A stretch of 64,000 nt of DNA from Lachnospiraceae bacterium (GTDB lineage Bacteria > Bacillota > Clostridia > Lachnospirales > Lachnospiraceae): assembly GCA_022652545.1 (NCBI GenBank), contig JALCRM010000002.1:186001-250000 (forward strand). The letters are read 5' to 3'. Below are positions 15,226 through 49,693 of this stretch, piece by piece (within the stretch, counting starts at the first letter, position 1; the number at the start of each line of letters is the position of its first letter). Both the position numbers and the translations under genes were made by a program. The notes under the pieces were generated by a model that had not been told where the DNA came from, did not search any database, and saw nothing but the letters and a program-made list of their open reading frames with translations.

Positions 15226-15950
15226 ATATCGCTTTGATCTTTGCCGGCGGCACCGGTACACGCATGGGACGCAGCACACAGTCGGTACCCAAACAGTTCC
15301 TGGAGCTGTACGGCAAGCCGATCATTATCTACACGCTGGAAAAATTCGAAAATCATGACGGGATCGACGGCATAGTCGTAGTCTGCCTGAAGGACTGGAT
15401 CCCGCAGATGCGCAAGTATGTAAACAAGTTCAACCTCACAAAGGTGAGGATGATCGTACCGGGCGGCAGCACCGGGCAGGAGTCGATCTACAACGGTCTC
15501 AAGGCCGCGAGAAAGATGTATCCCGACGATACTGTGATCCTGATCCACGACGGCGTGCGTCCTCTTGTCGCCTCTTCCACGATCGCGGCGAACATTGCCT
15601 GTGTGAAGGAAAAAGGCAATGCGATCACCGTGGTGCCGGCGACCGAGACGATTTTCATCGACAACAGTCAGGACGGCAGGGTCGGCCGTATCCTGGACCG
15701 CAGCCAGTGCGCTATGGCAAGGGCTCCGCAGGGCTTCCGGCTCGGACAGATCCTGGAATGCCATGAAAAGGCTCTTTCGGAAGGTAAAAAAGATTTCATT
15801 GATTCTGCGAGTATGATAAAATACTACGGTTATGAACTTTATACGGTCCAGGGCCGTACGGAAAATATCAAGATCACGACACCGATCGATTTCTACATTT
15901 TCCGGGCCATCGTGGACGCACACGAGAATTCGCAGATCTTCGGTCTGTAA
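15222..15950 (+). CDS. IspD/TarI-family cytidylyltransferase
   Basis: ALIFAGGTGTRMGRSTQSVPKQFLELYGKPIIIYTLEKF; LIHDGVRPLV. Confidence 0.88.
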   Translation: MNIALIFAGGTGTRMGRSTQSVPKQFLELYGKPIIIYTLEKFENHDGIDGIVVVCLKDWIPQMRKYVNKFNLTKVRMIVPGGSTGQESIYNGLKAARKMYPDDTVILIHDGVRPLVASSTIAANIACVKEKGNAITVVPATETIFIDNSQDGRVGRILDRSQCAMARAPQGFRLGQILECHEKALSEGKKDFIDSASMIKYYGYELYTVQGRTENIKITTPIDFYIFRAIVDAHENSQIFGL

Positions 15951-15967
15951 CAGGGAACAGTGGAGCA

Positions 15968-17248
15968 ATGGTATTCAATGTTATAAAGAGGAAGTGCAGA
16001 CGCATATACCCGGCGGCAGTAGAGGGTAAGTTTTTTCACCGTATCGGAGTGGCCTGGAAACAGTTCGCCGCATGGACGGACCGCCGCATCGGCTACGGCA
16101 ACAGAAAGATCCTTTCCAGGCACGCGGCCACAGTCCCGGACCGTATCCTTTTCATCACCTTTCAGCACGCATACGCATGCAATCCCGCATATATCTGCGA
16201 CGAACTGCTGCGCAGGAAATCCCCCGTGGACATATGGTGGGCGGTGGACAACCTGCTTGATCCGGGCGAGATCCCGCTGCGTAAAAACGTGCATCTTGTG
16301 AAGATCAATTCCTTTGAATACTTTGAAACGGCGGTTTCCGCCAAAGTCATCGTCATCAATTCACTCCTCGGGGACAAGTTCTATCCTTTTCCGGTCAGGA
16401 AAGACCAGATCGTGATCGAGACCTGGCACGGTTCTCTCGGTATCAAAAGGTTCGACCCCGCACATTACAACACGAATGTATCGTGGCCTGAGGCCGCAGC
16501 GCGCACGGGAAAACTCACGACTTACTGCATTTCCGACAGTACCTTCGAAGAGGGTGTTTACCGCGAATCCTTCTGGAAGGATACGCCGATCCTGCGCCTC
16601 GGGCATGCGCGCAACGATGTTTTCTTCGACACGTTCGCAAAGAAGAGAAAAAAGTGGAAAGAGCAGTTCCTTACCGATTATGTGCTGCCGGAGGACACAA
16701 AGTTCGCGCTGTATGCGCCGACCTTCCGGGACTCCCACAACTTTGCGGTGTACGACCTGAGCGCGGCCCGCATCGTGGCGGCCCTGCACAAACGCTTCGG
16801 CGGAGAGTGGAAGCTGCTTCTGCGCTATCACGACAACGACAAGAAAACAGAGAAGAAGAGGAACCGCATCGATTCCCGCGACGTGATCGATGTGACTTCC
16901 GTCCCCGATATTCAGCAGATGCTGTCCTTTGTCGATGTCGGCATCACCGATTATTCCTCCTGGATCTATGATTTCATGCTCAGCCGCAGGCCGGGCTTCA
17001 TCTACGCGAAAGACATAGAGATGTACAATGACGAGCGCGGCTTCTATTTCAAGCTGGAGAGCACTCCCTTCCCGGTCGCCAGGAACAACGATGAGATAGA
17101 GAAGAACATCCTGGGTTTTAACGAGACAAAATATCTGGCGGACACGGAGAAATTCCTGGCGGCGAGAGGCTGCATCGACGACGGTCATTCCTCCGAAAGG
17201 ATCGCCGACAAAGTGGAAGAACTGATGGGAGTGGCAAAGACCAAATGA
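15968..17248 (+). CDS. CDP-glycerol glycerophosphotransferase family protein (TagF/TarL-like)
   Basis: VIETWHGSLGIKRFD ... LYAPTFRDS ... VDVGITDYSSWIYDFMLSRRPGFIYAKD. Confidence 0.88.
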   Translation: MVFNVIKRKCRRIYPAAVEGKFFHRIGVAWKQFAAWTDRRIGYGNRKILSRHAATVPDRILFITFQHAYACNPAYICDELLRRKSPVDIWWAVDNLLDPGEIPLRKNVHLVKINSFEYFETAVSAKVIVINSLLGDKFYPFPVRKDQIVIETWHGSLGIKRFDPAHYNTNVSWPEAAARTGKLTTYCISDSTFEEGVYRESFWKDTPILRLGHARNDVFFDTFAKKRKKWKEQFLTDYVLPEDTKFALYAPTFRDSHNFAVYDLSAARIVAALHKRFGGEWKLLLRYHDNDKKTEKKRNRIDSRDVIDVTSVPDIQQMLSFVDVGITDYSSWIYDFMLSRRPGFIYAKDIEMYNDERGFYFKLESTPFPVARNNDEIEKNILGFNETKYLADTEKFLAARGCIDDGHSSERIADKVEELMGVAKTK

Positions 17249-31326: not shown

Positions 31327-31372
31327 CCGTCCGGCAGCAACAGCGGCATGAAGTGTTGCCGATGTTCGTTTC

Positions 31373-31401
31373 GGAGGATCTGAAGATCCTCCTCATGGAG
31401 G
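31373..31401 (+). promoter_or_regulatory. SD-proximal hairpin element, copy A
   Basis: GGAGGATC-TGAA-GATCCTCC-TCAT-GGAGG, 5 nt before ATG 31407. Confidence 0.7.
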
Positions 31402-31406
31402 AAAAT

Positions 31407-32120
31407 ATGACTGAAAAAAAACGCACAGCCGGAGGCTTCGGGCTTTTCGAAGCAGTCTTTGATATCTGCTACCTGGGCTTTGCATTCGGAGCGGGTTTTT
31501 ATACGCTCTCCCGCGCTTTCCGCACGGGCCGGCCGGCGCTGTATATGGCCGGTCTCCTGGCCCTGCTTCTGGGCAGCGGGGACGCCTTTCACCTTGTGCC
31601 GAGGGTGGCTTCCATTTTGTCCGGGAACGATGAAAAATACCGCAGGGCACTGGGCGTCGGCAAGCTTGTCACATCCATTACGATGACGCTGTTTTACATC
31701 CTTCTGATGCAGTTCGGACTTACGCTGTTCCCGGTGCGGGAAGGCGGCGCGCTGATGGCGGTGCTCTGGGTGCTCGCCGCCGTACGCATCGTGTTTTGCC
31801 TGCTGCCCCAGAACGACTGGACAGGCGAAGCAAAGAAGGGTACGGCGCAGCTCTCCTACTGGTTCGGCATCTACCGCAACATTCCCTTCACGGCGATGGG
31901 GATCGTCGTATGCGTTTTCTATATTCTGAAGGTGAACAGGGCAGCTGCGGCTGCGGCCGGCGCACCCGGGATGGAGTGGATGTGGCTCGCGATCGTGATC
32001 AGTTTTGCCTGTTACCTCGCCGTGGTGCTGGGGGCTGACAGGCACCCGAAGCTCGGCATGCTGATGATGCCGAAGACGCTTGCCTATGTGTGGATCCTGA
32101 TCCTTTGCGCGCGGATCTGA
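31407..32120 (+). CDS. Uncharacterised multispanning membrane protein
   Basis: MTEKKRTAGGFGLFEAVFDICYLGFAFGAGFYTLSRAF...; SD GGAGG before ATG. Confidence 0.8.
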   Translation: MTEKKRTAGGFGLFEAVFDICYLGFAFGAGFYTLSRAFRTGRPALYMAGLLALLLGSGDAFHLVPRVASILSGNDEKYRRALGVGKLVTSITMTLFYILLMQFGLTLFPVREGGALMAVLWVLAAVRIVFCLLPQNDWTGEAKKGTAQLSYWFGIYRNIPFTAMGIVVCVFYILKVNRAAAAAAGAPGMEWMWLAIVISFACYLAVVLGADRHPKLGMLMMPKTLAYVWILILCARI

Positions 32121-32138
32121 AGATTCTCCTTATGGAGG
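32113..32138 (+). promoter_or_regulatory. SD-proximal hairpin element, copy B (degenerate 5' arm)
   Basis: GGATC-TGAA-GATTCTCC-TTAT-GGAGG; contains the TGA stop of the preceding gene in the loop. Confidence 0.5.
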
Positions 32139-32147
32139 AGGCAGGGA

Positions 32148-32672
32148 ATGGATAAGCCAATGCTGCAGGTTTACTGCGGGGACGGCAAGGGAAAGACGAC
32201 TGCGGCGGTCGGACTGGCCGTACGCGCGGCCGGTGCCGGGCTGCATGTTTTCTTTACACAGTTCATGAAGGGCGACGAGTCGTCGGAACTCAGGGTGCTG
32301 CGCACAGTGCCGGGCATTGAGATCATGAAACCGGAAAAGCACTACGGTTTTTCCTTTGAGATGGACGACGGACAGAAGCGGGAGATCACGGCCTGCCACA
32401 ATGCGATCCTGGATGCGGCGCTGCGTCACCTGAAGAACGGGGATACGGATGTGATCGTGTTCGACGAGATCTTCAGCGCATACAGCTGCGGGCTGCTCGA
32501 CGAAGAAAAGGTGCACCGCGTCCTGTCGGTCCCGCAGACGGCGGAGATCGTCATGACCGGCAGGGATCCTGCGGAGTGGATCCTTTCCGGGGCGGACTAC
32601 ATCACCGAGATGCGGCTGGTGCGCCACCCCTATGAAAAAGGCATATCCGCACGCAGGGGGATCGAGTTTTAG
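32148..32672 (+). CDS. cobO: Cob(I)yrinic acid a,c-diamide adenosyltransferase (CobO/CobA/BtuR family)
   Basis: LQVYCGDGKGKTTAAVGLAVRAAGAGLHVFFTQFMKG; DEIFSAYSCGLLDEE. Confidence 0.92.
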   Translation: MDKPMLQVYCGDGKGKTTAAVGLAVRAAGAGLHVFFTQFMKGDESSELRVLRTVPGIEIMKPEKHYGFSFEMDDGQKREITACHNAILDAALRHLKNGDTDVIVFDEIFSAYSCGLLDEEKVHRVLSVPQTAEIVMTGRDPAEWILSGADYITEMRLVRHPYEKGISARRGIEF

Positions 32673-46835: not shown

Positions 46836-46840
46836 TGGGA

Positions 46841-47080
46841 TGCGTTGACGGAGACCCTTTCCGGCAGATGGTTTGAAGCAGAGATCCGGTATCGCGGCGG
46901 GAGCCGCGGCTGAAAGTACCGGGCAGACCGCCGGCCAGGCACCCCTCCCGAGCTGCGGTGCGAGAAAGCAAGCATCGCCGCAGGCCTGCGTTACGGGCGT
47001 GAATGAGTGAAAAGTCAAGGTGGGACCGTGTTGAAGAGACACCCTTGGACGGCGTATTGCTGTCCGGGGGTTTTTATTTT
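46841..47080 (+). promoter_or_regulatory. T-box leader (tRNA-Thr sensing), with terminator hairpin at about 47042-47076
   Basis: T-box core AAGTCAAGGTGGGACCGTG (47012-47030) followed by CCCTTGGAC...GTCCGGGGGTTTTT upstream of thrS; ACC at 46918-46920 is a plausible Thr specifier. Confidence 0.85.
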
Positions 47081-47096
47081 ACCGGCTGCCCTATTC

Positions 47097-47124
47097 GGAG
47101 AACCTTTGGTTCTCCTCAAGGAGG
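47097..47124 (+). promoter_or_regulatory. SD-proximal hairpin element, copy C
   Basis: GGAGAACC-TTT-GGTTCTCC-TCAA-GGAGG, 7 nt before ATG 47132. Confidence 0.75.
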
Positions 47125-47131
47125 TATTAGC

Positions 47132-47245
47132 ATGACGCTGTGCGCCGATGCGCCCATCGTCATGTCGCAGCAGCGGTGCCAGAGAACGGCACCGGCTGCC
47201 CTATTCGGAGAACCTTTGGTTCTCCTCAAGGAGGTATTAACATGA
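47132..47245 (+). CDS. Possible leader peptide uORF1 MTLCADAPIVMSQQRCQRTAPAALFGEPLVLLKEVLT
   Basis: SD GGAGG 7 nt upstream; stop overlaps the ATG of uORF2 (ATGA). Confidence 0.4.
   Translation: MTLCADAPIVMSQQRCQRTAPAALFGEPLVLLKEVLT
47207..47234 (+). promoter_or_regulatory. SD-proximal hairpin element, copy D
   Basis: GGAGAACC-TTT-GGTTCTCC-TCAA-GGAGG, 7 nt before ATG 47242. Confidence 0.75.
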
Positions 47246-47277
47246 CGCTGTGCGCCGATGCGCCCACCGTCATGTAG
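47242..47277 (+). CDS. Possible leader peptide uORF2 MTLCADAPTVM
   Basis: SD GGAGG 7 nt upstream; TAG stop before copy E. Confidence 0.35.
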   Translation: MTLCADAPTVM

Positions 47278-47310
47278 CGGCAGCGGCGCTTCGCGCCGGC
47301 CGCCCTATTC

Positions 47311-47339
47311 GGAGAATCTGAAGATTCTCCTCAAGGAGG
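47311..47339 (+). promoter_or_regulatory. SD-proximal hairpin element, copy E (thrS ribosome-binding site)
   Basis: GGAGAATC-TGAA-GATTCTCC-TCAA-GGAGG, 6 nt before thrS ATG. Confidence 0.8.
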
Positions 47340-47345
47340 TATTAC

Positions 47346-49124
47346 ATGAAGATCATTTACAATGACGGCCACACGGAAGAATGTCCCGCGGATCAGGAAG
47401 TGCATGTACTGCGTCATTCAGCGGCGCACATCATGGCGCAGGCGGTCAAGCGCCTGTATCCGGATGCGAAGTTCGCGTTCGGCCCTGCGACGGAGAAGGG
47501 ATTCTATTACGATATCGACATGGGCGATGTGAAACTCACCGATGAGGATCTTCAGAAGATTGAAGACGAGATGCACAAGATCACAAAGGAGAACCTGCCG
47601 TTCAAAGCATTCACGCTGCCCCGCGACGAGGCCGTGAAGCTCATGCAGGAGCGCGGAGAATCCTATAAAGTGGAGCATATTTCGGACCTGAAGGACGATG
47701 AACCGATCACCTTCTTCCAGCAGGGCGAATACATCGACATGTGCGTGGGACCTCACATCTGCTATACGAAGGCACTGAAGGCCTTCAAGATCACGTCCCA
47801 GTCCGGCGCTTACTGGCGCGCAGACCAGAACAACAAGATGCTGACCCGTATCAACGGCATTGCGTTTGCTTCCAAGGAAGACCTTGAAAAGTTCGAGACC
47901 ATACAGGCGGAGGCTGAGAAGCGGGACCACCGCAGGATCGGCCGTGAGATGGATCTTTTCGCCTTCATGGACGAGGGCCCCGGCTTTCCGTTTATCCTGC
48001 CCAACGGCATGATCATCCGCAATGAGCTCATGAAGTACTGGAGAGAACTTCACAGGCGCGACGGCTATCTGGAGATCGAGACGCCGGTCATGCTGAACCA
48101 GTCACTCTGGGTGACCTCCGGTCACTGGGCACATTATAAGGACAACATGTTCACGTCCACGATTGACGATCAGCTTTACTGCATCAAGCCGATGAACTGC
48201 CCCGGCTCCATGCTGGTCTACAAGAACAGGCCCCGTTCCTACAAGGAACTGCCGCTGCGCTATGCAGAGGTCGGTCTGGTGCACCGCTATGAGAAGTCCG
48301 GCGAACTGCACGGCCTGATGAGGGTCCGCTGCTTCCACCAGGACGATGCGCATGAGTACATGGCCCCTGAGCAGGTGGAAGGCGAGATCGAGCACATCGT
48401 ACACCTGATCAACGAAGTTTATCAGAAGTTCGGATTCAAGTACTTTGTCGAACTTTCCACGATGCCCGATGACCACATAGGTTCCGACGAGGACTGGGAG
48501 AACGCGACGAACGGCCTGCGGAACGCGCTTGAGCACCTCGGCATCGAGTATATCGTAAACGAGGGCGACGGCGCCTTCTACGGCCCGAAGATCGACTTCC
48601 ATCTGGAAGACTGCCTCGGCAGGACCTGGCAGTGCGGCACGATACAGCTCGACTTCCAGCTGCCGCAGAACTTTGAGGCAAAATACATCGGCGCGGACGG
48701 CGAGCTGCATACCCCGGTCATGATCCACAGAGTTGTGTTCGGCTCCGTCGAGCGTTTCATGGGCATCCTGATCGAGCACCTTGCAGGCAAGTTCCCGGTA
48801 TGGCTCGCTCCCGTGCAGGTCAAGGTTCTGCCGGTCTCCGACAAGAGTCTCGAGTATGCGACAGGCATTTACCGGAAACTGTTCGAAGCAGGTATCCGTG
48901 TGAAGCTCGATGACCGCGGCGAGAAGATCGGTTACAAGATCCGCGAGGCACAGCAGGTGGACCGCGTACCGTACATGCTCGTCATCGGGCAGCAGGAGCA
49001 GGAGAACGGGACGCTGACCGTACGCAACAGGGATACGGCGGAGTCGCAGACGATGTCCGTGGAAGAGTTCATTGCAGGCGTGGAGAAAGAGATCGCGGAC
49101 AGATCAATGAAGAACGGACTTTGA
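47346..49124 (+). CDS. thrS: Threonyl-tRNA synthetase
   Basis: HSAAHIMAQAVKRLYPDAKFAFGPATEKGFYYDID; MRVRCFHQDDAHEYM. Confidence 0.98.
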   Translation: MKIIYNDGHTEECPADQEVHVLRHSAAHIMAQAVKRLYPDAKFAFGPATEKGFYYDIDMGDVKLTDEDLQKIEDEMHKITKENLPFKAFTLPRDEAVKLMQERGESYKVEHISDLKDDEPITFFQQGEYIDMCVGPHICYTKALKAFKITSQSGAYWRADQNNKMLTRINGIAFASKEDLEKFETIQAEAEKRDHRRIGREMDLFAFMDEGPGFPFILPNGMIIRNELMKYWRELHRRDGYLEIETPVMLNQSLWVTSGHWAHYKDNMFTSTIDDQLYCIKPMNCPGSMLVYKNRPRSYKELPLRYAEVGLVHRYEKSGELHGLMRVRCFHQDDAHEYMAPEQVEGEIEHIVHLINEVYQKFGFKYFVELSTMPDDHIGSDEDWENATNGLRNALEHLGIEYIVNEGDGAFYGPKIDFHLEDCLGRTWQCGTIQLDFQLPQNFEAKYIGADGELHTPVMIHRVVFGSVERFMGILIEHLAGKFPVWLAPVQVKVLPVSDKSLEYATGIYRKLFEAGIRVKLDDRGEKIGYKIREAQQVDRVPYMLVIGQQEQENGTLTVRNRDTAESQTMSVEEFIAGVEKEIADRSMKNGL

Positions 49125-49148
49125 GGACAGGCACCGGCTGTCTTATTC

Positions 49149-49177
49149 GGAGGATCTGACGATTCTCCTTATGGAGG
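49149..49177 (+). promoter_or_regulatory. SD-proximal hairpin element, copy F
   Basis: GGAGGATC-TGAC-GATTCTCC-TTAT-GGAGG, 6 nt before ATG 49184; preceded by CACCGGCTGTCTTATTC as in the thrS copies. Confidence 0.75.
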
Positions 49178-49183
49178 GATAAA

Positions 49184-49693
49184 ATGACGATACTGGAACA
49201 GTGGCGCGCCAAGGCATATGACGAAAAGGCGGACAAGGGAAAACTGCAGGCCCTCTGGACGGACTACTTCCGCTGTGAGAAGGGGATCTATGAAAAACTG
49301 CTGGCGGAGCCCGACAAAGCGGTAAAGGGCACTGTGGACGAGCTGGCAGAGAAATTCGGGATCAGCCAGGAGTACATGGTGGGATTCCTCGACGGCATCA
49401 ACGATTCCCTGAAGAAGGCCAACCCGATCGAGACGATGGAGCCTGACACGAAGGTCTCCCTCGCCTTTGACAAGGAGAAGCTCTATAAAAACATGGTCGC
49501 CGCCGGCGCTGACTGGCTGTACAAGCTGCCGCAGTGGAACGACATCTATACAGAAGAAGAGAGAAAGAAACTTTATCTCGAGCAGAAGAAATCCGGAACG
49601 GTGAAGAAGGGACCGAAGGTTTATCCCAATGACCCGTGCCCGTGCGGCTCAGGTAAAAAATACAAGAAGTGCTGCGGAAAGGCCAACTGGTAA
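49184..49693 (+). CDS. SEC-C motif-containing protein
   Basis: C-term [25 protein letters not shown]. Confidence 0.9.

Follow-up and report, generated by a model that had tools for sequence, protein, structure and literature searches.

A hairpin with a Shine-Dalgarno (SD) motif at its 3' side, repeated before several genes of the window (the whole 64,000-nucleotide stretch that was analysed), makes up the 3' part of a ~100-nt unit built from modules, H1-H2-H3-SD, where H3 is the hairpin itself. At least 82 copies of it are present in the genome holding the window (G000; 2.67 Mb, 27 contigs, 81% complete), with conserved structure, almost all leading to a start codon and always in the orientation of the gene, and related species have SD-embedded families of their own. 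The unit belongs to a clade-specific family of modular hairpin repeats with an embedded SD and is most likely a small mobile or amplifying element specialised for ribosome-binding sites (RBSs), which would settle downstream of a gene's SD and upstream of its start codon.

Copies in the window and structure of the unit

A sequence-only reading of the window had reported six copies of the hairpin just before start codons. Five of them (5' arms at 31373, 47097, 47207, 47311 and 49149) were recovered as described, with covarying arms and, after them, TCAT, TCAA or TTAT, then GGAGG, then a start codon; the 49149 copy is the one with the G-T intermediate GGAGGATC/GATTCTCC. The sixth, before cobO (32113), proved to be degenerate, with a 5' arm that is GCGCGGATC and not GGAGGATC, has no GGAG and runs over the stop codon of the preceding ORF; its score is 34.3 bits against 52-67 for the other five. 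The position just before start codons held for the genes, but the SDs at 47120 and 47230 precede mini-ORFs (37 and 11 codons) and not thrS. Two further hairpins upstream of H3 and the tandem arrangement had been overlooked. The copies, and the T-box leader next to them, are given below, with bit scores from R1, a covariance model built from 52 H3+SD copies, and from R2, an SD-free model of H1-H2.

31333..31401, + strand: single copy with an alternative upstream hairpin AACAGCGGCATGAAGTGTTGCCGATGTTC; H3 31373-31380/31385-31392, SD 31397-31401, membrane-protein ATG at 31407 (R1 63.1 bits)
32109..32138, + strand: degenerate H3-like end before cobO, ATG at 32148 (R1 34.3 bits, E 1e-4)
46836..47049, + strand: divergent thrS T-box leader (Rfam RF00230, 37.1 bits, E 5e-6, below the gathering score)
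47081..47124, + strand: thrS array unit 1, 5'-truncated; ACCGGCTGCCC, H3 47097-47104/47108-47115, TCAA, SD GGAGG 47120-47124 (R1 match C2:233080-233124, 52.5 bits)
47132..47234, + strand: thrS array unit 2; H1 47132-47163, H2 47167-47199, H3 47207-47214/47218-47225, SD 47230-47234 (R1 54.1 bits, R2 51.9 bits)
47242..47339, + strand: thrS array unit 3; H1 47242-47273, H2 47277-47303, H3 47311-47318/47323-47330, SD 47335-47339, thrS ATG at 47346 (R1 66.7 bits, R2 53.4 bits)
49132..49177, + strand: 5'-truncated copy just past the thrS stop; CACCGGCTGTCTTA, H3 49149-49156/49161-49168, TTAT, SD 49173-49177, ATG of the SEC-C gene at 49184 (R1 64.2 bits)

The thrS gene was identified by TIGR00418. 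Its T-box, which is followed by a terminator-like hairpin and a U-run, is context outside the element; since the array lies between the T-box and the thrS start, two leader systems are stacked at this gene. The mini-ORFs of the thrS leader arise where the ATGACG-type H1 (window 47132-47274) puts an ATG 7 nt past the previous SD; elsewhere such frames reach up to 70 codons, and one has an ATGA overlap with the next unit.

In its common form, H1 is GTTTGAAAGTGC-CGCTGATGCA-GCACTTTCAAAC (two other sequence types occur), H2 is GCAGCATCGGTGC..GCACCGGCTGC, and H3 is GGAGAATC-TGAA-GATTCTCC, followed by TCAT, GGAGG, usually 4-9 nt, and ATG. Terminal inverted repeats are absent from the unit, which starts with GTTTGAAAG and ends with CTCCTCAT. 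Some units have an extra hairpin between H2 and H3, others are 5'-truncated or H3-less, and mosaic modules (H2-only, or a half-H1 fused to H3) are also present. The H3+SD pattern with up to 3 mismatches matched G000 58 times, against 0 for the reversed-pattern control, and R1 gave 82 matches at E<=1e-3 in 65 arrays (51 single, 11 double and 3 triple), with a tandem period of mostly 103-112 nt; these R1 counts are minima, as degenerate units without H3 are invisible to the model. Chance or an assembly artefact was ruled out by the empty control and by the families of the sister species. No Rfam family matched the element, the T-box match lying upstream of the thrS array.

All three hairpins covary, and homologous copies in a sister species do so too, which bears out the earlier proposal of selection on RNA structure. 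In H3, 97.4% of the cells are paired and double changes were found in 5/8 pairs (36 doubly changed cells versus 10.3 in shuffles); H1 and H2 together showed them in 7/24 pairs (20 cells versus 4.7), and the cross-species alignment with homologous copies from the congener G055 in 12/27 pairs (33 cells versus 7.0). These shuffle statistics are inflated by the kinship of the copies, but slid-partner controls fall to 26-62% paired. A short outer helix, in which CCA before H3 pairs with UGG (including the first GG of the SD), is paired in 94% of cells and occurs in A-U, G-C and U-A versions.

Position at gene starts and families in related genomes

An ORF of 100 codons or more begins 4-11 nt past the final SD in 61/65 arrays (60 ATG, one TTG). 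The reported association with start codons is thereby supported, and so is the earlier suggestion of a mobile ribosome-binding-site cassette. Three of the other four arrays, when re-read (L294-L296), reach an SD and ATG through degenerate units; the fourth is C13:29842. Because R1 includes the SD and could be biased by it, R2 was searched as well and gave 44 matches in G000, nearly all within R1 arrays; the R2-only copies that were read (L292-L296) likewise continue to an SD and ATG, in some cases with H3 missing.

The genes carrying the element include thrS, clpP, pgi, murD, asd, argB, sufB, pta, pyrI, rsfS, coaX, aroQ, fucI and rhaB, and they are functionally unrelated, with no common theme, the functions of the remaining ones being only read from the sequence. 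The longest upstream open frame was on the same strand in 31/60 arrays examined and mostly ended within 200 nt; because the opposite-strand frames include shadow frames, this count gives no more than a rough indication of many copies lying within operons.

Like MITEs and other small mobile repeats, the unit is short, non-coding, many-copy and variable among close relatives: against the 82 matches in G000, R1 found 0 copies in the other 61 congeners and 0 in 391 other genomes of the order, a search in which weak matches could be lost. G055, the closest congener available (ThrS 79% identical), had no R1 matches; an end sequence of its own, GCTTCGGYATGGAGG, is present 60 times (control, 0), and the copies that were read are mostly located directly before start codons. 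R2 matched G055 eight times, six of these being a subfamily termed 2b. Several full-length G055 copies (L163, L240) end in GGCATGGTGAT and not in a GGAGG-like SD, and therefore the replaced SD is weak in them. A third SD-embedded family was found in G057 (ThrS 62%), where the H1 loop CCGGAGCG is exactly complementary to a CGCTCCGG that precedes the SD (L270, L275, L277); some G055 copies have a CCGAAGC/GCTTCGG counterpart, and this complementarity looks like compensated long-range pairing.

The G055 and G057 repeats are mostly different from those of G000. Element-bearing genes are rarely common to G000 and G055 (the three overlaps first seen were loci chosen as orthologues), on which ground a conserved regulon was rejected, and the G055 thrS-SEC-C junction has no element. 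No SD-linked repeats were detected by exact 13-mers in ~200 kb sampled from each of G017, G004 and G045, and 11-mers in the more distant congeners gave only weak, coding-like signals.

An exact-motif scan of 84,980 species genomes yielded one copy, in a Lachnospiraceae MAG (UW_DM_LCO1_1; G041, L056/L085). This lone, diverged copy has its own extra-hairpin version, CACCGGCAAAAAATACTGCCGGTG, and precedes a gene reading like a glycosidase; horizontal transfer is possible. A k-mer signal in the same MAG was rejected as an element, being a coding repeat: many 18-nt in-frame repeats, TTTGCCGGAGCAGCCTTC, encode a repetitive protein on the opposite strand (L261, ~15900-16150).

Possible insertion signature and accessibility of the SD

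An SD-like motif stands just upstream of 15/23 H1-type array heads, compared with 37/281 control windows (13%), and is absent from the other eight. At C20:17806, for example, GGAGGCGGAA is followed by the element (GTTTG..TTCAT) and then by GGAGGCGGAATAATG, with GGAGGCGGAA on both sides of the element; at C8:52357 the order is GGAGGTAA, GTTTG..CAT and GGAGGTAAAGATG. The spacers match across the element in the pooled set (30 versus 11.3 shuffled, p=1e-4), and the match is only suggestive in single copies (20 versus 12.2 shuffled, p=0.06), a set from which heads possibly following another unit were removed and to which one copy (L292) was added. Across tandem junctions the post-SD spacers also match (45 versus 15.4 shuffled, p<1e-4), which can also be explained by tandem duplication. 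In two G055 cases the SD varies together with its left copy (AAAGGAT, GGGGGAT), and at pgi, G055 has a homologous flank upstream that leads element-free to an SD and ATG, in a comparison of one genome per species. Target duplication on insertion thus seems likely.

The sequence-only reading had also proposed a bistable hairpin, in which CTCC pairs either with the 5' arm or with the SD. This was not upheld in G000, where the two states are not comparable in folding energy, the SD hairpin of the consensus (CUCC:GGAG) being 4.7 kcal/mol above the H3 state, and where opening the SD costs about what it does elsewhere (median 2.9 kcal/mol in 82 copies versus 2.3 for 19 ordinary genes of the window with a GGAGG; P=0.14). 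Covariation of the CTCC:SD pairing was not seen in this genome, because the SD does not vary.

In the G055 subfamily 2b the arms changed from GGAG/CTCC to GGCG/CGCC with the hairpin kept (H3 is GGCGAAT/ATTCGCC), which shows that resemblance of the 5' arm to the SD is not required. These copies (L285-L290) retain a CCUC able to pair with GAGG, and fold either into H3 with a free SD or into CAGAUCGC..GGCGAAUCUG with CCUC:GAGG sequestering it, the balance ranging from 2.1 kcal/mol for the free to 4.7 for the sequestered SD. A switch is energetically plausible in this subfamily; switching is therefore not general in the family, but conceivable for 2b, and translation control is possible, with better support in 2b than in G000. 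An SD-complementary CCUC or CUCC precedes the SD in the G000, G055-2b, L284 and G057 types, and the persistence of this anti-SD-like motif across most families hints at a translational role.

Competing explanations and known elements

We infer active mobility, duplication of the SD on insertion, and a role of the hairpins in mobilisation or SD access. The element would spread within the genome and come to lie downstream of a gene's SD and upstream of its start codon, giving the layout (ancestral SD + spacer)-H1-H2-H3-(SD + spacer)-ATG; as an SD is still present at the usual distance from the gene, insertion would be tolerated even at essential genes. Tandem arrays would form when the SD junction is duplicated or receives a further insertion, each related species would have amplified its own version, and the hairpins may serve mobilisation, keep the SD accessible, or both. 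If true, selfish DNA has in the RBS a safe place to insert that is very abundant in a bacterial genome, and it can put structured RNA 5' of dozens of unrelated genes, essential ones included; the consequences of leader structure and of a duplicated SD for translation could then be followed in a natural experiment. The element would also supply translational switches in finished form, to judge by the near-balanced G055 subfamily, and would help in the search for the mobilising enzyme.

A genome-wide translational regulon, in which a structured leader (riboswitch-like, a thermometer, or an sRNA or protein target) hides or exposes the SD via CCUC/CUCC and was copied as a useful control, would account for the covariation of all stems, the conserved CCA:UGG helix, the anti-SD motifs of four types, the two states of 2b and the loop complementarity of G057 and some G055 copies. 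We consider it unlikely, given that the target genes share no theme and are rarely common to sister species, that in G000 sequestration is unfavourable and the SD ordinary in its opening cost, that H3-less copies still precede genes, and that most congeners lack the element. Less probable still is a passive housekeeping repeat, a stabilising or insulating 5' stem-loop RBS that recombination or gene conversion has carried from one gene start to another and that is retained because it makes translation reliable or the mRNA stable, having neither a means of movement of its own nor a switching function; the fixed position and orientation and the ordinary SD accessibility agree with it, and the mosaic modules suggest recombination between copies, but it leaves unexplained the new copies at unrelated genes, the second, upstream SD, and the step from congeners with 0 copies to one with 82.

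Movement by a Y1 (HUH) transposase, as in a REP/IS200-IS605-like element whose CTCC or CCA is a guide pairing with the SD as cleavage or target site, fits the geometry of guide, hairpin and cleavage site (CCA-H3-UGG) and the fixed short motif that adjoins the insertion. It is nevertheless very improbable, since Y1_Tnp (PF01797) had no match in G000 (81% complete), G055 or G057, whereas control genomes did match. No autonomous partner or transposase was found among the matches listed, those to the commonest Pfam families, for 56 upstream open frames beside arrays (some of them shadow frames), and a search for a phage or plasmid vehicle gave no match.

The mobile repeat specialised for RBSs remains our preferred reading. 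With less confidence, we suggest that it may represent an undescribed class of mobile element with the SD as integration site, which inserts between SD and start, re-creates the SD by target duplication, is harmless at essential genes and has its own hairpin subfamily in each species of the clade. A literature search for SD-targeted repeats found no such family described, most subscription journals being outside its coverage.

Riboswitch and T-box leaders resemble the element in their 5' UTR structure and possible SD sequestration, but the element has no conserved ligand-type core, common pathway or Rfam match. REP/REPIN sequences are dispersed mosaic palindromes with compensatory arm changes, moved by Y1 (RAYT) transposases; they are like the element in their dispersed mosaic hairpins and unlike it in that Y1 is absent here and the position is tied to start codons, whereas REP elements are not known to hold a fixed position relative to them. 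The BOX, RUP and SPRITE repeats of pneumococcus (PMC3049150) and the Correia elements are likewise short, non-coding, structured, modular, many-copy and limited to close relatives; the element described here differs in occupying only SD-start junctions, in one orientation, with an SD at its 3' end, with no terminal inverted repeats and with no partner IS seen beside the arrays. In Beggiatoaceae, more than 100 sets of TAACTGA direct repeats lie just before the start codons of unrelated genes and are strain-specific (PMC4679880); those repeats are 7 nt long, hairpin-free, and overlap or replace the SD, whereas the units found here are ~100-nt hairpin units that bear the SD themselves.
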